Origin: Candidatus Martarchaeota archaeon
GTDB taxonomy: Archaea; Micrarchaeota; Micrarchaeia; Micrarchaeales; Micrarchaeaceae
Length of the DNA: 35,930 nt
Reading direction: 5' to 3'
Assembly (NCBI GenBank): GCA_023485545.1
Contig: JAMCZI010000006.1
Location: 1 to 35,930 of the forward strand
Shown: positions 4,606 through 29,578 of the stretch, one piece after another
Layout of the letters: each line of letters starts with the position of its first letter
How positions within the stretch are numbered: the first letter of the stretch is position 1
Notes under the pieces: generated by a model
Told to the model about the DNA's origin: nothing
Database searches by the model: none
Seen by the model: only the letters and a program-made list of their open reading frames with translations
Made by a program: the position numbers and the translations under genes

Positions 4606-6255
4606 CTACTTGATGTAGTATACGTTCGTCGGCCTATAAATAAGCGTCGGCGTCTCGTACTCGACGTAGTAGCTAGGTGCATCCTTTGGTATTGTTATGT
4701 TGAGCACGTTAGTCCATTCGCTGCATTTCGGAGGACCGGACCATACTACGTAATTGTCAGGGAGGAATTGGGAGCATGGCGTAGTGTTTGTTATGTCAAA
4801 TATTACACGCGATGTTGAGGGGTCGCCAAAATATGTGGGAAATAGTGCGCCGGTATATGTTATCGTCGTATTGTGCCAGTACGCCTCCAGGTAGACGAGC
4901 GGAGTCCCTGTGACGTTGTAGCGCAGGAAATTGGCAGCCTGCATTACTATCTGCTCTGGATACATCTGCCACCAGTAATACGAGTAGCTTATGAGCGAGT
5001 TGTTCCAATAAAGAAATGCCAGCAGCAACAGCACTAGCACTAAGTCAGCACTGAGAAGATACCTGTTCTTGACCTCCAGCGCCTTCGCGAGAGCTATGCC
5101 TATTATCCCAGCCATGGCGGGAGCTAAAACCATGAAAAAGCGGTGGAGCCTATACGCGAACACGTACTGGAACGCCAGCGGGCTTAGCGTTATCCCGACA
5201 TGCATCGGCCCAAACTCTAGGAAGAGGAAAAAGAAGGCAAACGCGGAGAGAAGCAGGATCGAGCGCTTTTCCCTGAGTATTAGCAAGGCGGCGATTGCCG
5301 GAATGACCATATAGAAGTACACCCCGTATTCGTAATTCTGCGGCATAAGGGTGAACATGTCTACAAGGTTTGACAGTTTGCCGCTAAGGCTTCCCGGCTG
5401 CAGCAGCCGCGTGGCTATCTGGTACTGGAACATCTCCTGTATATAATAATCAAAATTGACGTTGGTGGTAGGTATAGTGGGAAGGCCGTTGATGCGGGCT
5501 CCGACAGCGCTGTAGAACCTGTTGTTGGACGTTATGAATGCGAACGGCTTTCCTATTGCAGAGGCACTGTATATGAAAGATATGAGAAGCAGTATCACGA
5601 TGCCGTATACGAAAAATATGCTTGTCCTGTCGATTAGTATCCTTTTCCTGAGCAGCTCTACGATGGCCAGAAGGAGCATGAACGCTATCACAACTCCGGC
5701 CTCGTAGCTTATGAACCATGCAAATGGCAGCATCGCGCCGCTGGCGAAGTACCAGTACTTCTTGTTGCGCCTCTCTGCGTATATGAAGAATAGAAGCGCG
5801 AGAGCGCCGATAAACATCAGAGGTACATCCTCCTCGGTATTCACCGCGTACTTTGTGAGAAGGGGGAAGACGCTAAGCAGGTATGCAGAGAGCAGGGCTG
5901 CCTTGTTCCCATAAAGCTCTTTTACAATCAGGAAAGTTGCCAGTATGCCGCCAAGGTATCCCGTTATGTCCCAGAGTGTTGATGTCAGATTGGTGACGCC
6001 GAACAGTGCGTAAAAAAATGTTATGGGCAGGAACTGACCAGGCCTGAGCGAAAATATGTAACCTGGATTGAGCTGGTATGCGCCGTTTAGCACGCTGCTC
6101 GCAAGATAGGTGTAGTTCGGATCGTCAGCATAGCCGCTTGGCCCTTCTGCATGGGTAAAAGCATATATGGCAGCATTCGCGAGTATGGCGACAAGCAGCA
6201 CCAGCACTAGCGCCTTGTTCTCCTTTGTGCCGCTCTTCAGGAATTTATCAATCAT
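4606..6255 (-). CDS. GT39/ArnT-like membrane glycosyltransferase (GT-C fold)
   Basis: A 549-residue protein with about 11-13 hydrophobic segments. The first external loop carries the acidic pair YADDPNY (residues 43-49), the position of the catalytic acidic motif of PMT/ArnT-type GT-C enzymes that use lipid-linked sugars. It also has an LRPGQ-like segment after it and a C-terminal extracytoplasmic domain of about 100 residues with several Asn-rich sequons. Its start overlaps the upstream gene by 4 bases. With the secreted protein downstream and the dolichyl-phosphate sugar synthase across the divergent promoter, it probably transfers sugar from a lipid carrier to surface protein or lipid. Confidence 0.82.
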   Translation of the reverse strand: MIDKFLKSGTKENKALVLVLLVAILANAAIYAFTHAEGPSGYADDPNYTYLASSVLNGAYQLNPGYIFSLRPGQFLPITFFYALFGVTNLTSTLWDITGYLGGILATFLIVKELYGNKAALLSAYLLSVFPLLTKYAVNTEEDVPLMFIGALALLFFIYAERRNKKYWYFASGAMLPFAWFISYEAGVVIAFMLLLAIVELLRKRILIDRTSIFFVYGIVILLLISFIYSASAIGKPFAFITSNNRFYSAVGARINGLPTIPTTNVNFDYYIQEMFQYQIATRLLQPGSLSGKLSNLVDMFTLMPQNYEYGVYFYMVIPAIAALLILREKRSILLLSAFAFFFLFLEFGPMHVGITLSPLAFQYVFAYRLHRFFMVLAPAMAGIIGIALAKALEVKNRYLLSADLVLVLLLLAFLYWNNSLISYSYYWWQMYPEQIVMQAANFLRYNVTGTPLVYLEAYWHNTTITYTGALFPTYFGDPSTSRVIFDITNTTPCSQFLPDNYVVWSGPPKCSEWTNVLNITIPKDAPSYYVEYETPTLIYRPTNVYYIK

Positions 6256-7007
6256 GTGACTTTGACCTCTGCGCAGCTTTTTGATATCTTGTTAAATATT
6301 GTCGAGTTCGACACATCGATGCGGTGGTATGTGAAATTGGTGAAGGAGGATACCCAGGAGCTGTCATTCTTGAAGGCGAGAAATACGCCGCCGCATATGT
6401 TCCAGTTTTTTCCAGTGGCGTTCTGCGTCGGGGTTATATTGAGCACAAGCTCCATTTCGGAGCTTGAGGACGCTCCAGGAGGTGTTATTATGTTGGAGTT
6501 GCCCACGCTTGTGAAGTACTTTGTCGAATTTGGCTCGCTGCCGGGAACGTACATGGTATCAGAGCCGTTGCTGTAATAGCCATAGTAATATATGTTGACG
6601 GTCTTGTTGAGAAACGCGCTGACGTTGTAGTTGTTGAAGTTGAAGGTCCCGTTGTACACTATCGCTACACGTATCTTTTTCCCAGGAGTTGCAGACGCGC
6701 TGCTCAAAGACGCGTTTATCGATGAAATCGATATGACTGGCACTTGCGTCACTAGCTTGTGCGTGGAGAACGAATACAGGTCTATGTAGGTGAGGTTCTT
6801 AAGAATCGAATACTGGGTAAACTCGAATTTTGGAAGCGAGCTCGGGGAGGCGCCTCTGTGCGCAGATGCTGAAGGATATCCAAGATAGACAATAACCAAA
6901 ACGATCACAAGCAGGATTATAACTACAGTTGCTATCGCGAAGGCGTAGTCGTTTGACATGTCCTTGAGAAATTCGACGAGCAGCTTCTTTGGCAGTGTCT
7001 CACCCAA
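6252..7007 (-). CDS. Single-span membrane protein with extracellular domain, unknown function
   Basis: A 251-residue protein with a short cytoplasmic N terminus, one very hydrophobic span (about residues 22-43) and an extracellular part of about 200 residues with many N-x-S/T sequons. It has a single late cysteine pair. The start is uncertain: TTG at 7007 opens the frame, while an in-frame ATG at 6959 would shorten the N terminus by 16 residues and keep the membrane span. It heads the three-gene - strand operon and is translationally coupled to the glycosyltransferase. No family recognised. Confidence 0.7.
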   Translation of the reverse strand: MGETLPKKLLVEFLKDMSNDYAFAIATVVIILLVIVLVIVYLGYPSASAHRGASPSSLPKFEFTQYSILKNLTYIDLYSFSTHKLVTQVPVISISSINASLSSASATPGKKIRVAIVYNGTFNFNNYNVSAFLNKTVNIYYYGYYSNGSDTMYVPGSEPNSTKYFTSVGNSNIITPPGASSSSEMELVLNITPTQNATGKNWNICGGVFLAFKNDSSWVSSFTNFTYHRIDVSNSTIFNKISKSCAEVKVT

Positions 7008-7058
7008 ATGTTAAATAAAGTGCCAGTGTTAACATTACATAATTTGTCCTGAAAAGGA

Positions 7059-7067
7059 TATTAATAT
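7059..7067 (+). promoter_or_regulatory. TATA box of the + strand glycosyltransferase operon
   Basis: The element TATTAATAT is centred 26 bases before the TTG at 7089, the spacing of a leaderless archaeal transcript. It lies in the 80-base gap between divergent surface-polysaccharide genes; an AT-rich element near 7038-7045 could serve the opposite strand. Confidence 0.55.
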
Positions 7068-7088
7068 TCCCGTGCATGGTGCTTTGGT

Positions 7089-9068
7089 TTGATAGCCGCT
7101 TTGCTTGTATTGGCCGTTTCAGTAGTTTTTGGCGTGAGCATCGTTTCAAGGCTCGAATTCGCCGACTCCGCGCTCCTCAGGATTTCATTCGGAATTCCTT
7201 TTGGGGTAGCGGCATTCGCCTTCTTGGAGCTGCTGTTCTACTTTCTCTATGGCAGGGTCACGATAGCGACAATATATGCAGCTGCTGCAGTACTCGCCGC
7301 GATAGCGGTTATTGCGGTAGTACAGAAAACTGGATTGAGCGCCAGGAAGCTAAGGAAGCATTTAGCCGGAAAGGGAGCGGGCCTGCCATTCATGCTTGGC
7401 ATATACCTTCTTGTGCTCTACGCAATAATAGGCACTTTGTTCCTCGTGTCAGTTTTCATTGTAGGGCATACGTTTTACTGCGAAGGCCCAGGGTGCTCAG
7501 ATACGATGTACCACATAGGGATAGGCAATTCGCTGCTGTATTCCAGCTGGCCGCCAAAGCTGTACTTCGCGTACGGCGCCAACAACGTATTCCCGTTCAT
7601 CTACGACTTCTTCGTTTCCATGATGATGAAATACGGGCTTGGCATCAATGCTGCGCTTGCTGTTCCTGAGCAGCTCATGGTGTTCTCGTTCGTATGCCTC
7701 TCAGTCCTGATCGCCTACAGGATAACTGGAAGCGAGCTTAAGGCCGTGATGGCCACAGTGATACTATGGTTTGGCGGGACAGGCTTCGTTCAGCTTTTGG
7801 ACTACCCGTTCAAGGGCACCCTGTCCAAATTGCTTTTCCCAATACACCTTCTCACTCCACCAGCTACGACAGGCATACTCTCCGGAGTAAATGCAGCAGT
7901 GTACGTCTCTACCGATTTCATAACTTACTGGGTATCGGTGATAAACACGATGCTGATAGCGCAGCGCGACTTTATGCTCGGTCTACCGATAGGGTTCGCG
8001 GTCATATACCTGCTCTACATCTTCGTGTACGAGAAAAAAGCAATGAGCAAGAAGGAGGCAGCTTTCATAGGCATTCTGATTGGCATGCTGCCGCTGATAC
8101 ACCCGCTCACGCTTGTAGTTGTTGGCGTCCTGGCGGTTTTCTCAATAGCGGTGTACTTGATCACTTCAAAAAAGAAGATTATTGCTGCGACTAATAGCGC
8201 AGTGGCCGCGGCTGCTGCACTCGTGATTGGAATTCCGCAGATGCTTTACATAGATGCGCAGCCAAAGGGGCTGAACTGGTTCTACCAAAATTGGGGCGGT
8301 TTTGTAATACACATGCACAACGCCTTGCTTACCGCGCTGGCAACTTCTGGCAACATACTCTTTTTCTGGATAGAGGTGGTAGGCCTCCCGGCAGTGATAG
8401 GCATCATAGGGCTCGCGTACGCGAAGAAAAAGGAGAGGCTGCTTTTCGTGCCTTTCATGGCGCTCTGGGTGCTCATAACATTCATATCGATAACGCCAAA
8501 CCCAGGAGACGAGAACGAAGTATTCCTATACGTATTTTTCATCCTGGCAATACTGTCATCAGAGCTGCTCTACAAGCTTTGGAAGTCTAACAGGATAGGC
8601 AAAGCAGCTGTGATAGCAATGCTTGTAGTGATATGCTTCAACGCACTTTTCGTCGTGTACTTCGACGACCTGCACAACGTACAGCTTCTTGAATCCCCTG
8701 CAGAAATGTCTGCCGCATCATTCATAGCAAACAACACCCCTGAAGGGGCGGTATTCGCAGTAAGTGATTACAACACGTTCAACCCTGTAGTTTCAACTCT
8801 TGGATCAAGGCAGACCATAATATCAATAGCGATGTACGTTGGTGGGATAGTGACTGTTCCACCGCAGAAGCTCGAAGCCGCCAACTCGAAAATAATATCT
8901 GGTGGCAGCTGCTCGGCAATAGAGGAGTACAACGTATCATACGTATACTTGCAATCCAGCAACTCTTCATCTGGGAAGCCGTTCGACAACTCGAATTTCT
9001 CAGTGGTATACAGGGCACATGACAGCATGCTCAACGACAACATAACGATTTATAGGACACACTGTTGA
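7089..9068 (+). CDS. Large multi-span membrane protein, probable GT-C glycosyltransferase
   Basis: A 659-residue protein with about 13-14 hydrophobic segments and a C-terminal extracytoplasmic domain of about 130 residues with several sequons. An early external loop has CEGPGCSDTMYHIGIGNSLL (near 130-150), where a conserved acidic residue and His follow two cysteines, reminiscent of the catalytic loop of GT-C enzymes. The frame is closed by a stop just upstream, so TTG at 7089 is the first possible start; the TATA box 26 bases before it supports a leaderless TTG message. It is 12 bases upstream of the GT2 gene. The donor and acceptor are not evident. Confidence 0.75.
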   Translation: MIAALLVLAVSVVFGVSIVSRLEFADSALLRISFGIPFGVAAFAFLELLFYFLYGRVTIATIYAAAAVLAAIAVIAVVQKTGLSARKLRKHLAGKGAGLPFMLGIYLLVLYAIIGTLFLVSVFIVGHTFYCEGPGCSDTMYHIGIGNSLLYSSWPPKLYFAYGANNVFPFIYDFFVSMMMKYGLGINAALAVPEQLMVFSFVCLSVLIAYRITGSELKAVMATVILWFGGTGFVQLLDYPFKGTLSKLLFPIHLLTPPATTGILSGVNAAVYVSTDFITYWVSVINTMLIAQRDFMLGLPIGFAVIYLLYIFVYEKKAMSKKEAAFIGILIGMLPLIHPLTLVVVGVLAVFSIAVYLITSKKKIIAATNSAVAAAAALVIGIPQMLYIDAQPKGLNWFYQNWGGFVIHMHNALLTALATSGNILFFWIEVVGLPAVIGIIGLAYAKKKERLLFVPFMALWVLITFISITPNPGDENEVFLYVFFILAILSSELLYKLWKSNRIGKAAVIAMLVVICFNALFVVYFDDLHNVQLLESPAEMSAASFIANNTPEGAVFAVSDYNTFNPVVSTLGSRQTIISIAMYVGGIVTVPPQKLEAANSKIISGGSCSAIEEYNVSYVYLQSSNSSSGKPFDNSNFSVVYRAHDSMLNDNITIYRTHC

Positions 9069-9080
9069 GGTAATTACAGG

Positions 9081-9863
9081 ATGGAGGTATACGTAATCAT
9101 CCCTGCTAGGAACGAGGCGGGCAGGATAGCCAGGACGCTTGCTGATTATTCCAAACTGAAGTCCGATTTGGGTAGGGTAAGGATAGTTGTTGTATCGGAG
9201 AGCAACGATGGTACTGATGACATAGTGAGGAATTTCGGTGAGCTCAACGGCAACATAACACTTCTCAAGGCCGAAATTGGGTCAGGCAAGGGAGGCGCCA
9301 TAATGAGGGGATTCCGCTACGCTATGGCGCGGTCCGGAAAATGCGTCGTAGGATTTGCCGACGCTGACGATGCAGTTACGGCAAAAGAATTTGGCAAGCT
9401 GCTGAAACGGCTCGCAGCATCAAAGGGGATAGCTGGAGTAATAGCTTCAAGATATTCCAATGGTGGAAGCATTGAGGGGCGCATAGGACTCTGGAGGAAG
9501 GTTGCGAGCAGGGCTTACAATGTGCTAGTGAGGCTGCTCTTTAGGGTAGGTTTCAAGGATACACAGTGCGGTGCCAAGGTCTTCAAGTCGGAGGCGCTCG
9601 GCAAGGTGATAAGGCTGGTAGACATAAACGGGATGAGCTTCGACATAAACCTGCTTTATGAACTCAAGATAAAAGGTTACAAGGTTGTTGAGGAGGGAGT
9701 CAGGTACAGGCAGATGAACGATGGCACGAGCATACGCATACTGAGGAACTCGCCACAGATGCTTGTGGCGGCACTTGGGTTCAGGGTGTACAAATCCAGG
9801 TTCATAAAGCTTTTCCCCAGGAGAGTTGTGCGCCACGTTTACAAAAGGATAGACAGGTGGTAG
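9081..9863 (+). CDS. GT2 glycosyltransferase, dolichyl-phosphate sugar synthase type
   Basis: A 260-residue GT-A enzyme with N-terminal VYVIIPARNEAGRI, the nucleotide-sugar site VVSESNDGTDD (about 36-46), the metal-binding DADDAV (about 94-99) and the DTQCGAKVFK signature (about 155) seen in dolichyl-phosphate glucose or mannose synthases. It lacks the C-terminal membrane spans of some family members. Such enzymes load a sugar on dolichyl phosphate for GT-C transferases, two of which lie within 5 kb. The sugar is not determined by sequence. Confidence 0.88.
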   Translation: MEVYVIIPARNEAGRIARTLADYSKLKSDLGRVRIVVVSESNDGTDDIVRNFGELNGNITLLKAEIGSGKGGAIMRGFRYAMARSGKCVVGFADADDAVTAKEFGKLLKRLAASKGIAGVIASRYSNGGSIEGRIGLWRKVASRAYNVLVRLLFRVGFKDTQCGAKVFKSEALGKVIRLVDINGMSFDINLLYELKIKGYKVVEEGVRYRQMNDGTSIRILRNSPQMLVAALGFRVYKSRFIKLFPRRVVRHVYKRIDRW

Positions 9864-9873
9864 CATAAGGATA

Positions 9874-11019
9874 TTGTTGCTGAACTGGAGGGACAAGACC
9901 GACAGAAGCTACGGCGGAGCGGAAGAATTTGTTGGTAGGTTGGCGGATGAGTTGGCGAAGCAGTGCGAAGTTACACTATTCACTTCCAGGGGATCAGGAA
10001 GCGCTCACGAGAATGATAAGAACTTGGAGATTATCAGGAGAGGCAGCGTGAACACAGTGTACTTCTGGGCAATTGCGCATATGCTAAAGCACAGGAGGAG
10101 GTATGATGCGGTTGTAGAAAGCGTTAGCAGCGTGCCCTTCTTCTCTAGCCTTGTTTTTGACAGAAGAAAAATATTCCTTATCGTTCACCATGTGATGGGA
10201 ATGGAGGCCTTTAGGACGGCTAGCCCTCCCAAAGCGCTAGTGGCGTACGCTGCGGAAAAGGCGATACCTTCGCTCTACAAAGGCTCTGTTTTCCTAGTTA
10301 ATTCAAATTTCGTGAGGAGCCAGTTGGAGAATTTAGGCGTATCTGGCAATTCCATCCGTTTGATAAAAGGGCATATTGCTGCAGTAGCAGGGCATAGAGC
10401 AGCAAAGAGCAGGAAGCCGACAATCATATCAGTATGCAGGCTGGTGAAGTACAAAAGGGTTGACATGCTGATAAGGATGTTCGCCAGTCTTAGAAGAAAA
10501 GTTCCAAACGCCGAGTTTGTTATAGTTGGAGAAGGCCCTGAAAGGACAAAACTTGAATCTCTTAGCACCAGGCTGGGGCTTGAAAACAGCATAAGATTCA
10601 CCGGATTCTTGGCAGAGAGTAAGAAGGCGGTTGAACTTTCAAAAGCCTGGGTTTTTGTCACTGCAAGCAGGATAGAGGGGTTGGGAATCAGCGTTTTGGA
10701 AGCGGAGTCCTGCGGCCTCCCTACCGTGGCATTCGCCAACGGCGGGCTTGTCGAGGCGGTGAAGGATGGATACTCTGGGTTCCTTGTCAAGGAGGGAGAC
10801 GAAAAGGCGTTTGTCGAGGCGTTGTACAGCCTCATTCGCAAGGGAGGAAAGCAGCGCTTGGCCAAGATGTCAGCAAACGCGGTAAGACATTTTTCTTCTT
10901 TTGGCAGCGGTGATGCTGCAAAGATCATACTGAAGCTCGCTAGGAGTTCCTTGAGTGCTTCTGCGCGGCGGACAGGAAAGCCACGAAAAGCGGCGCGGGG
11001 GACTCGAGGCGCGACTTGA
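9874..11019 (+). CDS. GT4 family glycosyltransferase
   Basis: A 381-residue GT-B enzyme. The N-terminal half has the RSYGGAEEFVGRLA glycine-rich loop, and the C-terminal half has SVCRLVKYKRVDMLI, VIVGEGPE and the donor-site EGLGISVLEAESCGLPTVAF, the E-x7-E motif of GT4. The first usable start is TTG at 9874, but the three codons before it (ATA AGG ATA) extend the usual N-terminal strand, so an ATA start at 9865 is conceivable. It starts 10 bases after the GT2 gene. Its last 27 codons overlap the 3' end of CTP synthase on the other strand, giving a very basic tail (Arg/Lys/Ala/Gly) unlike the domain. Confidence 0.88.
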   Translation: MLLNWRDKTDRSYGGAEEFVGRLADELAKQCEVTLFTSRGSGSAHENDKNLEIIRRGSVNTVYFWAIAHMLKHRRRYDAVVESVSSVPFFSSLVFDRRKIFLIVHHVMGMEAFRTASPPKALVAYAAEKAIPSLYKGSVFLVNSNFVRSQLENLGVSGNSIRLIKGHIAAVAGHRAAKSRKPTIISVCRLVKYKRVDMLIRMFASLRRKVPNAEFVIVGEGPERTKLESLSTRLGLENSIRFTGFLAESKKAVELSKAWVFVTASRIEGLGISVLEAESCGLPTVAFANGGLVEAVKDGYSGFLVKEGDEKAFVEALYSLIRKGGKQRLAKMSANAVRHFSSFGSGDAAKIILKLARSSLSASARRTGKPRKAARGTRGAT

Positions 11020-12570: not shown

Positions 12571-12674
12571 GCTTTCCATGCAATTTTTGTCGTCGGAAAT
12601 CTCTCGCAGAATTAGGGGCACGACGAGGAAAGCTTTTTATATCTTATTTTTTAATATAGAACTCAGTGATACAT

Positions 12675-13247
12675 ATGTTTGGAAGGAGAGAGAAAGGTTT
12701 CAAAGCGCAAAGCGCTATGGAATACCTGATGACCTACGGATGGGCCATACTCATCATAGCTGTGGTCTTGGCGGCACTGTTCGCACTGGGAGTATTCAGT
12801 GGCGCATCGCTGCTCGGAACAAGCTGCGTAGCATCCTCGGGATACACGTGCACAAACCCGGTTATGAACACCGCGGGAATACTGACAATCAACTTCGGAC
12901 AGAGCACTGGCGTGACCCTGTATGACCTGAACTTTGCATGCGCTGCAACGTCCAACTCGACAGGACTGCCGTTCTTTAACTCCATTACGTACAACACAGT
13001 AGCAGCAAGTAATGGCCTGCCGGACCAGTACAGCCTTATTGCGACGACTGCAACGAGTGGACAGACATTCTCTGGAGTTTCGACTGAGTGCTACTCCACA
13101 ACAGGAGCACCTATAGGATCTACAGGTTCGCCTGCACCACTTGGAACAGCGTTCAGCGGATCGCTCTACCTGGCATATTCGACAGTGTCTGGAGGAACGC
13201 CGAACCAGTATTCGAAGTTCGCAACGCTGACGATAAAGACTACGTAA
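12675..13247 (+). CDS. Pilin-like protein with class III signal peptide, copy 1
   Basis: A 190-residue protein with a short basic leader, then AQSAMEYLMTYGWAILII, the class III signal peptide (archaeal prepilin/EppA-type Q-S-x-E-Y-L motif) that forms the pilin helix. A Ser/Thr/Gly-rich head follows with three to four cysteines, matching secreted pilin subunits. ATG 12675 is preferred over GTG 12666. Two AT-rich boxes (12634-12643 and 12644-12658) precede it. DNA from 12698 to 12874 is identical to the next gene apart from a 5-base gap; the heads then diverge. Assembly would need a membrane prepilin peptidase and ATPase, neither of which is in this window. Confidence 0.85.
   Translation: MFGRREKGFKAQSAMEYLMTYGWAILIIAVVLAALFALGVFSGASLLGTSCVASSGYTCTNPVMNTAGILTINFGQSTGVTLYDLNFACAATSNSTGLPFFNSITYNTVAASNGLPDQYSLIATTATSGQTFSGVSTECYSTTGAPIGSTGSPAPLGTAFSGSLYLAYSTVSGGTPNQYSKFATLTIKTT
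12698..12874 (+). repeat. Pilin 5' cassette, copy A (identical DNA shared with 13400-13571)
   Basis: Bases 12698-12792 equal 13400-13494 (95 bases) and 12798-12874 equal 13495-13571 (77 bases), with no mismatch; only TATTC at 12793-12797 is absent from the second copy. Outside these limits the two genes are clearly diverged. Within it, 12717-12760 is also identical to 29087-29130. Confidence 0.95.
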
Positions 13248-13256
13248 TCGCGTAGC

Positions 13257-13287
13257 CTTTTCTTCTTTTTCTTTTTTTTATTGTTTT
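13257..13287 (+). terminator. Poly-T terminator after pilin copy 1
   Basis: Directly after the stop codon the + strand has three long T runs separated by single C, A or G bases. This is the usual archaeal T-tract terminator and separates the two tandem pilin genes into independent units. Confidence 0.65.
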
Positions 13288-13358
13288 AATACACACATAG
13301 CTAGGGCGCCGTAAACGGCAGACACAAATTGAGGCTCATCGCCACGTATCTATTATAG

Positions 13359-13368
13359 CTTTATAGTT
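13359..13368 (+). promoter_or_regulatory. TATA box of pilin copy 2
   Basis: CTTTATAGTT is centred 26 bases upstream of the ATG at 13389, so the frameshifted copy still has its own leaderless-type promoter. Confidence 0.5.
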
Positions 13369-13388
13369 GAATTGGTATTTGTGGTAGA

Positions 13389-13992
13389 ATGGTAGGTTCT
13401 TTCAAAGCGCAAAGCGCTATGGAATACCTGATGACCTACGGATGGGCCATACTCATCATAGCTGTGGTCTTGGCGGCACTGTTCGCACTGGGAGAGTGGC
13501 GCATCGCTGCTCGGAACAAGCTGCGTAGCATCCTCGGGATACACGTGCACAAACCCGGTTATGAACACCGCTGGCGTAATCTCATTTACTTTCGGCCAGA
13601 ACACTGGATCTACGATATATGCACCTCGCATTGCATGCGCAGCGACAACCAATTCGAGCGGGATGCCTTATGAATTAAGCACAATCGTGTTCCTGGGGAT
13701 AGAGTATCTAGTAAGTACGCCAATTACCTCTCCATCGCCGCTGACGGCGAACCAGGTTTTCAGCGAAACATATGGCGCCAATACAATAACAACTGGGGCG
13801 TACACGAGTGGGGAGACAACACCGGACGTTGGGGTGGAATGCTATAGTAGCAATGGCGAACCGCTCAATGTGAATGGGGCAGTGCCGCTCAACACGCCGT
13901 TCAGCGGAGCACTCTATATTGAGTACAACACCACGCCTGGAGGAGTGCCACAATATTCGAGATTCGCCACTGTGACGATAAAGGTGACGTAG
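13389..13992 (+). pseudogene. Pilin-like gene, copy 2, frameshifted by a 5-base deletion
   Basis: The N-terminal 35 residues match copy 1 exactly from FKAQSAMEYL onward. Relative to copy 1, five bases are missing after 13494, so the frame runs into an unrelated reading and stops at 13673. The original frame continues from about 13495 to the stop at 13992 and still encodes a good pilin head (sequons, conserved cysteines, YSRFATVTIK near the end, parallel to copy 1). The head is intact with no stop codons, so the break is recent, phase-variable or an assembly error. An internal ATG at 13561 could give only a headless fragment without signal peptide. Confidence 0.8.
13400..13571 (+). repeat. Pilin 5' cassette, copy B
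   Basis: This is the second copy of the 172-base identical segment, offset by 702 bases before the deletion and 697 after it. The first diverged base is 13572 (T against G in copy A). Confidence 0.95.
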
Positions 13993-14015: not shown

Positions 14016-14948
14016 TCAGGCCTTAGCGTTATGCATCGCTTCCAGCTCCTTCTTCATCCTTAGCAGCTCCATGAGTTCGTTGGCGCTGAGAAGCGGCTTC
14101 CTGGTGCGGTCTGTATCGTCAACTGCTATTCTTGGGCAAGCTGTGTTCACAAGGACGTCGAACTCCATCATATTGTTTATAGAGTCGAAATCGAACGTGT
14201 TTGCCACGAGAATGCCTGCTTCCATGCCCTGGGACTCTACCTTACGCTTGATGAGCTCTGCCATTGGCATGTTGCTCTGACCGTTTTTAGTAGTAACGAG
14301 TATGCCGACCTTTTTGGCATCTATCGATGAAAGCAGCTTGCCGTTGCGCTTCTTCCTGTATTCTTCCCTGTAATGGTCCATGCGCTCCACAGAGCCCTGG
14401 AACGGCTCTATGGCTATGAAAGGCTTCTTTGTGTTGAGCACCGCACCGAGAGGATGGAATATTCCCCCGCCAAAGTAGACATGCGCATCGACAAGCCTGT
14501 CAACGCTTGCAGAGCTGCCTATATCGCAGCCAAGTATCTGCCCGGGATGCTTGGCAAAACCGTACGGCTTTCCTATGAGCACTTCCTTGCCATGCGACTC
14601 GAAGAACTCCTTTACGCTTTTGAGCTGGTGAAGGTGCTGCACCGTGGTGACCAGCCCTATTGTTCTGAAGTCTTTCATGTAAGGAAGCGAATCCTCCAGT
14701 ATGCCCAATGGAGCATCAATCTCGTAGGGTATGTATTCGACGTTGAAATCCACCTTGTGGAACTCGGCGTGGCCGAAATGTATCAGCTTGTCAGCCTTCA
14801 GGTCCCTTGCCTCGTCCAGTGCCAGGTCGCACGCGCCGAAGGTTGGCGATGCTGATATGAGCACGTCATTGCCCTCGCTCTCGAGCATCTTGGCATGATG
14901 CAGAGCCCTGTCTTTGAGCCCTTCTGGGAATTGTATAAGGATTCTCAT
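14016..14948 (-). CDS. dph2: Diphthamide biosynthesis protein Dph2
   Basis: A 310-residue protein that makes the first step of diphthamide on EF-2, moving the aminocarboxypropyl group of SAM to histidine by radical chemistry. The three conserved cysteines that bind the 4Fe-4S cluster are C40 (FGACD), C141 (LGCDIG) and C271 (NTACPRIA), one in each repeated domain. Its length is typical of archaeal Dph2. A TATA-like TTTAAATAT lies about 43 bases upstream. It ends 23 bases from the convergent pilin copy 2. Confidence 0.93.
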   Translation of the reverse strand: MRILIQFPEGLKDRALHHAKMLESEGNDVLISASPTFGACDLALDEARDLKADKLIHFGHAEFHKVDFNVEYIPYEIDAPLGILEDSLPYMKDFRTIGLVTTVQHLHQLKSVKEFFESHGKEVLIGKPYGFAKHPGQILGCDIGSSASVDRLVDAHVYFGGGIFHPLGAVLNTKKPFIAIEPFQGSVERMDHYREEYRKKRNGKLLSSIDAKKVGILVTTKNGQSNMPMAELIKRKVESQGMEAGILVANTFDFDSINNMMEFDVLVNTACPRIAVDDTDRTRKPLLSANELMELLRMKKELEAMHNAKA

Positions 14949-29041: not shown

Positions 29042-29578
29042 ATGCACATGACCGAAAACAAGCATTCCAAGCGTTCCCAGTCTGCAATGGAATACCTGAT
29101 GACCTACGGATGGGCCATACTCATCATAGCGGTTGCGCTCGGCCTGCTCTACGTCCTCGGCCTTTTCAGCCCTTCGTCTTCGACGAGCAGTTCCTGCACG
29201 TCGCAGAGCGGATACGTGTGCACGGACCTCTCGTTCTCGTACAATGGCATTGTGACTTTAGAATTTGGCCAGGACACTGGCACGACGCTTTACAACCTTG
29301 AATTCACGTGCACAGCATTGGAAAGTTCTGCAGGTCTGCCGAGCCCAAAAAATGATTTCGTTGTCTCGCCTGCGCGCACGGTAATAAACTCGCAGAAGTT
29401 TTATGTAAGCATGCCATGCTACACTTCTTACGGAACGAGGTTCAGCTCCACACAGATAGGGACGCCATATACAGGGTATATATGGATAAACTATACACAG
29501 GCAAACCAGCCCCCAGGCAACAGCAACCCATGGTTGACCGCGAAGATAGCGGCTTTCAGCACGAAGACCACGAATTAG
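29042..29578 (+). CDS. Pilin-like protein with class III signal peptide, copy 3
   Basis: A 178-residue protein with a basic leader (TENKHSKRSQSAMEYLMTYG), the class III signal peptide and hydrophobic helix, and a Ser/Thr-rich head with four cysteines. Bases 29087-29130, coding MEYLMTYGWAILIIA, are identical to both copies near 12.7-13.5 kb although the rest is much more diverged. A TATA-like element at 28975-28985 predicts a leader of about 36 bases. ATG 29048 is an alternative start. It converges on rnp2 with a 4-base overlap. Confidence 0.85.
   Translation: MHMTENKHSKRSQSAMEYLMTYGWAILIIAVALGLLYVLGLFSPSSSTSSSCTSQSGYVCTDLSFSYNGIVTLEFGQDTGTTLYNLEFTCTALESSAGLPSPKNDFVVSPARTVINSQKFYVSMPCYTSYGTRFSSTQIGTPYTGYIWINYTQANQPPGNSNPWLTAKIAAFSTKTTN
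29087..29130 (+). repeat. 44-base pilin cassette core, third copy
   Basis: Identical base for base to 12717-12760 and 13419-13462. Both flanks differ immediately, including at third codon positions. Confidence 0.9.

Follow-up and report, generated by a model that had tools for sequence, protein, structure and literature searches.

The tandem pilin genes of this locus raise the question of how two neighbouring archaeal genes can be identical at every base across the signal peptide and helix and yet carry clearly different heads. The window, meaning the whole stretch of 35,930 nt that was analyzed from contig JAMCZI010000006.1 of a Candidatus Martarchaeota archaeon, belongs to a genome whose closest relatives within the genus are metagenome assemblies named Candidatus Micrarchaeota. 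An earlier note made from the letters alone had described zero-mismatch blocks with sharp limits between the two genes, and direct comparison confirmed them. On the forward strand, a left block of 95 nt in gene 1 (12698-12792) matches gene 2 (13400-13494) exactly at 95/95 bases, and a right block of 77 nt in gene 1 (12798-12874) matches gene 2 (13495-13571) exactly at 77/77 bases. Identity drops to 22/60 in the left flank and to 64/99 in the right flank, which places sharp tract borders inside genes that are otherwise homologous. As the earlier note also stated, the heads are different and still related; alignment shows 60/121 amino acids to be identical. Identical codons were used at all 52 degenerate positions of the blocks (52/52) compared to 25/58 in the heads (Fisher p = 2e-12; 25/60 when all shared codons of the heads are counted). 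The block identity is not due to chance. The codon agreement in the heads is that of saturated genes, and the divergence of the two heads is old.

The earlier note had described the locus as two tandem pilin genes, and its exact blocks stand; it had overlooked a five-base gap and the frameshift that this causes in gene 2. The bases TATTC (12793-12797, forward strand) lie between the two blocks of gene 1 and are present in both gene 1 orthologues from sister species, and they are missing from gene 2. As a result, the signal peptide and helix of gene 2 are in a different reading frame from its head. The N-terminal open reading frame of gene 2 (13389-13673, forward strand, 94 aa) encodes the signal peptide and helix and leaves the frame after ...FALG, whereas the head frame (13495-13992, forward strand), homologous to the head of gene 1, opens only from within the left block, is preceded by stop codons and contains none inside the head. 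With its two parts out of frame, gene 2 would yield no pilin as assembled, and judged by its reading frames it is a pseudogene in this assembly. The frameshift is the less certain part of the assembled sequence. The genome (762 kb, 78% complete) is fragmented into 32 contigs, and near-identical repeats are error-prone in such metagenome assemblies. That the repeat or the gap is an assembly artefact is nevertheless highly improbable. The gap limits the exact runs shared by the two genes to 95 nt, and the pattern recurs in independently assembled genomes, including the single-contig genome G010, so that a collapse of repeats is unlikely; in addition, short-read errors do not typically take the form of a 5-nt indel away from homopolymers.

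Gene 1 (12675-13247, forward strand) is an intact class III signal-peptide pilin of 190 aa, with an in-frame GTG upstream at 12666. Both genes encode the prepilin-peptidase motif KAQS (at residue 10 of gene 1) followed by SAMEYLMTYGWAILIIAVVLAALFALG, and a hydrophobic stretch begins directly after KAQS. Residues Q12-A24 are invariant in 50 relatives. The structure predicted from these 50 relatives has a helix at residues 14-38 and an all-beta head of seven strands (mean pLDDT 81.9). Searches of the pilin proteins against Pfam and NCBIfam gave no match, nor did a PDB sequence search, and a fold search with the pilin model returned no significant best matches, with an archaeal pilus only at rank 50. 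Elsewhere in the genome, an assembly ATPase (PF00437) and a TadC-like platform protein (PF00482) are encoded on contig C32, both above cut-off, and a prepilin peptidase of the A24 family is represented by a weak match below cut-off. The assignment as a putative archaeal type IV pilin is based on the motif, the modelled architecture and the finding that the genome encodes an assembly ATPase and platform proteins. No relative of the pilin genes was found in viral contigs, and a viral or mobile origin was rejected on this basis. Overlapping open reading frames in other frames also exist.

Genes 1 and 2 are placed between the CTP synthase gene and dph2 (14016-14948, reverse strand), a diphthamide synthesis gene that marks the pilin locus across Micrarchaeota. 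In the phylum sample this dph2-side locus is conserved, and dph2 adjoins or lies near pilin genes in most of the loci compared. A dispersed paralogue, gene 3 (29054-29578, forward strand), has a 44-nt exact run in common with genes 1 and 2, and its module is not converted. Close upstream of the pilin locus, positions 4606-11019 contain membrane-protein and glycosyltransferase-like open reading frames, and N-glycosylation sequons occur in the pilin heads; a link between the two is only a guess.

For 135 related genes from 73 genomes, codon identity was scored at those N-terminal positions where the residues are the same. Between genomes, synonymous identity at the N-terminus had a median of 0.38, compared to 0.34 expected from codon usage; within a genome it was 0.62, compared to 0.39 expected. 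Across the family, paralogues of one genome are thus more alike at silent sites than they are to relatives in other genomes. An N-terminal identity of at least 0.8 was reached by 29/145 within-genome pairs and by 14/7243 between-genome pairs. With head identity matched at 0.3-0.6, the counts at this threshold were 19/113 within genomes and 2/5104 between genomes, and both of the latter pairs consist of gene 2 of the window and a sister-species gene 1. In genes from other genomes whose heads are as far from that of gene 1 as the head of gene 2 is (amino acid identity 0.50), only 9/29 and 13/28 N-terminal codons agree with gene 1, whereas gene 2 agrees at 28/29. As genes at equal head distance have so few of these codons in common, the split between genes 1 and 2 appears to be old, with the 5′ part made identical later. 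The earlier note had named as a refuting observation that, in related genomes, third positions would diverge equally within the block and beyond it; this was looked for and was not found.

The same pattern is seen in other genera, which extends the claim of the earlier note that the signal-peptide and helix module had undergone gene conversion. The N-terminus and head were incongruent in 12 of 25 high-identity pairs, several of which share a genome and are not all independent. The two pilins of pair a-b in G037 agree at 32/32 N-terminal codons, and one of their heads is nearer to G029 (0.51 vs 0.41), whose N-terminus agrees at only 11/31 codons (p = 6e-9); for the block in G037 and G029, mismatch positions were read directly. 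Similarly, pair a-b of G017 agrees at 32/35 codons, compared to 17/32 for a gene of the sister genome G094. In pairs such as those of G037, G010 and G017, pilins of one genome have an identical hydrophobic domain and divergent heads. The beginning of the identical blocks falls in the leader or close to the prepilin cleavage site, and their end varies in position along the stalk, as would be expected of conversion tracts. Other tandem pairs are not homogenized (G029, 13/32; G013, 13/28; G084, 13/29), so the process is recurrent and not universal, and the pairs of G006 and G031 showed no clean separation by species. A separate case is a tandem pair in G021 (L148, equal to L168), in which two pilin genes separated by 1664 nt are nearly the same along their full length (676/694 nt); unlike the module-only cases, it represents either a recent whole-gene duplication or a conversion.

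These comparisons also bear on whether conversion is needed at all, since a 5′ module under strong nucleotide-level constraint could have left both copies simply unchanged. Gene 1 itself offers some support for this explanation. Over its putative promoter and 5′ segment (12623-12874), three species of the genus differ at a single base, and codon agreement for the segment between species is 62/62 and 60/62. In the same species, 63-75% of shared codons agree in the genes for CTP synthase, dph2, L10e, L1 and L10. The near-invariance covers the promoter and the first 66 codons, and includes a promoter/leader and first-codon portion (12623-12697, forward strand) that orthologue alignment shows to be invariant in the three species and that is not shared with gene 2. 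Within it lies the TATA-like CTTTTTATATC (12633-12643, forward strand), a putative promoter element upstream of gene 1. A similar, weaker slow-down is seen in genus g6 at its dph2-adjacent pilin. Even so, a universal constraint of this kind is rejected, because between genera the module is close to saturated at silent sites (0.38) and the near-invariance of the 5′ segment is lost. Different N-terminal codons are also found in genes whose heads are at most as distant from that of gene 1 as the head of gene 2, and gene 3, whose N-terminal amino acids are the same in G000 and G002, keeps just 19/35 codons between the two. Some tandem pairs have diverged freely, and gene 2 is frameshifted. No Rfam family matched in the block, and its predicted fold was no better than that of shuffled sequences (z-score -0.67), and a structured RNA was rejected. 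The codons of the block are mixed, with four alanine, four valine and four different serine codons, and codon optimization was rejected on this ground and because ribosomal protein genes show normal drift among these species. On balance, unchanged copies without conversion are an improbable explanation of the identity.

The near-invariance of gene 1 may reflect expression-linked constraint or exchange between species. It also governs what can be said about timing. The earlier note had called the conversion recent, a claim that is not established here: with gene 1 differing at a single base among three species over 12623-12874, zero differences between genes 1 and 2 need not mean recency. They would indicate recency only if the broken gene 2 drifts at the neutral rate. 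Because the gene 1 segment is invariant in the sister species, the window pair likewise offers no test of whether gene 2 tracks its own gene 1. In G001, one contig (C65; loci L050/L127) carries a dph2 and a pilin N-terminus identical at every codon to those of G032, which belongs to a different genus; as G001 has its own dph2 on contig C21, C65 is probably a contaminant contig in that bin.

A different route to the same pattern would be a recent partial duplication that placed the 5′ module of gene 1 before an old and different head. Identity that is sharply bounded on both sides is compatible with such shuffling, as is the occurrence in JAGWHI of the same N-terminal module in dispersed genes with heads of 171 and 643 residues, with 19/23 codons matching. 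Gene 2, however, has its own start codon and leader, and its head is homologous to that of gene 1 throughout and sits in the usual tandem position of other genera, so that a pilin N-terminus was probably already there. We consider recent module shuffling very unlikely for this pair. The reading that we favor, and hold to be very probable, is that genes 1 and 2 are old tandem paralogues whose 5′ module was copied from gene 1 to gene 2 by ectopic gene conversion as their heads diverged. The copied module would run from the end of the signal peptide through the helix and stalk to ...NPVMNTA, and conversion would be confined to the stretch over which the two genes stayed similar enough to recombine, with the heads too different for recombination and continuing to diverge. 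At both of its ends the gene 1 block runs on unbroken into sequence shared with its orthologues, which points to gene 1 as the donor. The five-base gap would then have made gene 2 the pseudogene that it now appears to be as assembled. What the DNA shows directly is the identity of the blocks with its sharp edges, saturation in the heads, a broken frame in gene 2 and, across the family, an excess of silent N-terminal agreement within genomes; we infer gene conversion as the molecular process, as well as its direction. Homogenization would on this account be mainly a by-product of purifying selection on the helix of the pilus core combined with recombination, and not a switching device.

The earlier note had further proposed that variable heads could be swapped on a constant pilin base as a mechanism of surface variation. 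This proposal found no support, as the tract is the constant part of the gene, the heads of gene 1 are orthologous between species, and gene 2 is frameshifted here and absent at this site in G001. The gene 1 heads of G001 and G002 are orthologues with 84-90% amino acid identity to that of the window, such that heads track species, and no chimeric head was seen in the genomes compared. In G002, contig C9 (L012) ends about 105 nt after gene 1, short of any gene 2 position. The out-of-frame gene 2 could still be imagined as a silent reservoir of heads, with a crossover or conversion in the 77-nt block switching the pilus surface. A codon begins at 12798 in gene 1 and likewise at 13495 in the gene 2 head frame, so a crossover in the right block would preserve the reading frame, and no stop interrupts the head frame. 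However, no such product was seen, the sister-species heads of gene 1 are orthologous, the site in G001 is without gene 2, and both copies are intact in the remaining tandem pairs that were examined. One broken copy fits plain decay, and a head reservoir is most unlikely. We give scarcely more credence to the related proposal that a 5′ module kept by conversion lets recombination set the out-of-frame head of gene 2 behind the expressed promoter. If true, this would amount to switching of the pilus surface by a DPANN archaeon, one that may attach to host cells.

In total, gene conversion of the module is supported and generalized beyond the window, its recency is unproven, and surface variation is unsupported. 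For practical purposes, a tree or primer set based on the conserved N-terminus of the pilins would group genes by genome and not by descent.

Among known systems, the PilA1-PilA6 pilins of Haloferax volcanii have a near-identical hydrophobic N-terminal domain and different heads, each alone can build a pilus, and the common domain matters for assembly (PMC4371748). The likeness lies in having several pilins per genome with the same hydrophobic domain and divergent heads, and is one of pattern, as no sequence relationship to the Micrarchaeota pilins was established here. The identity in Haloferax is at the protein level, whereas here silent sites are homogenized at the DNA level with sharp borders.

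Donor copies of the Neisseria pilin lack the 5′ end. Gene 2 is not a silent donor of this type, as it keeps a start codon and the 5′ coding module. The pilE/pilS system combines a conserved N-terminus, a variable head and gene conversion, and its silent copies may be frameshifted; there, transfer proceeds from unexpressed silent loci and concerns the variable head (PMC4877100). Here the constant 5′ part is transferred and the heads are saturated, and both tandem copies are intact in other Micrarchaeota genera.

Finally, long-lasting and recurrent concerted evolution is known for prokaryotic genes such as tuf, mtrA and flagellin, in which paralogues are closer than orthologues, including at silent sites; it is attributed to gene conversion, and the archaeal cases are all methanogen genes (PMC6053082). 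A search of the open-access literature found no description of archaeal pilins undergoing partial concerted evolution. The sequence comparisons thus point to recurrent, module-limited concerted evolution in Micrarchaeota pilins, a process of a known kind that is apparently unreported for these pilins, and document it for a phylum of uncultured archaea. In genes such as tuf, mtrA and flagellin the whole gene is homogenized, whereas in the present pilins homogenization is limited to the 5′ third and the remainder diverges to saturation, so that one end of the pilin would be kept uniform by copying between paralogues and the exposed end left free to diversify.
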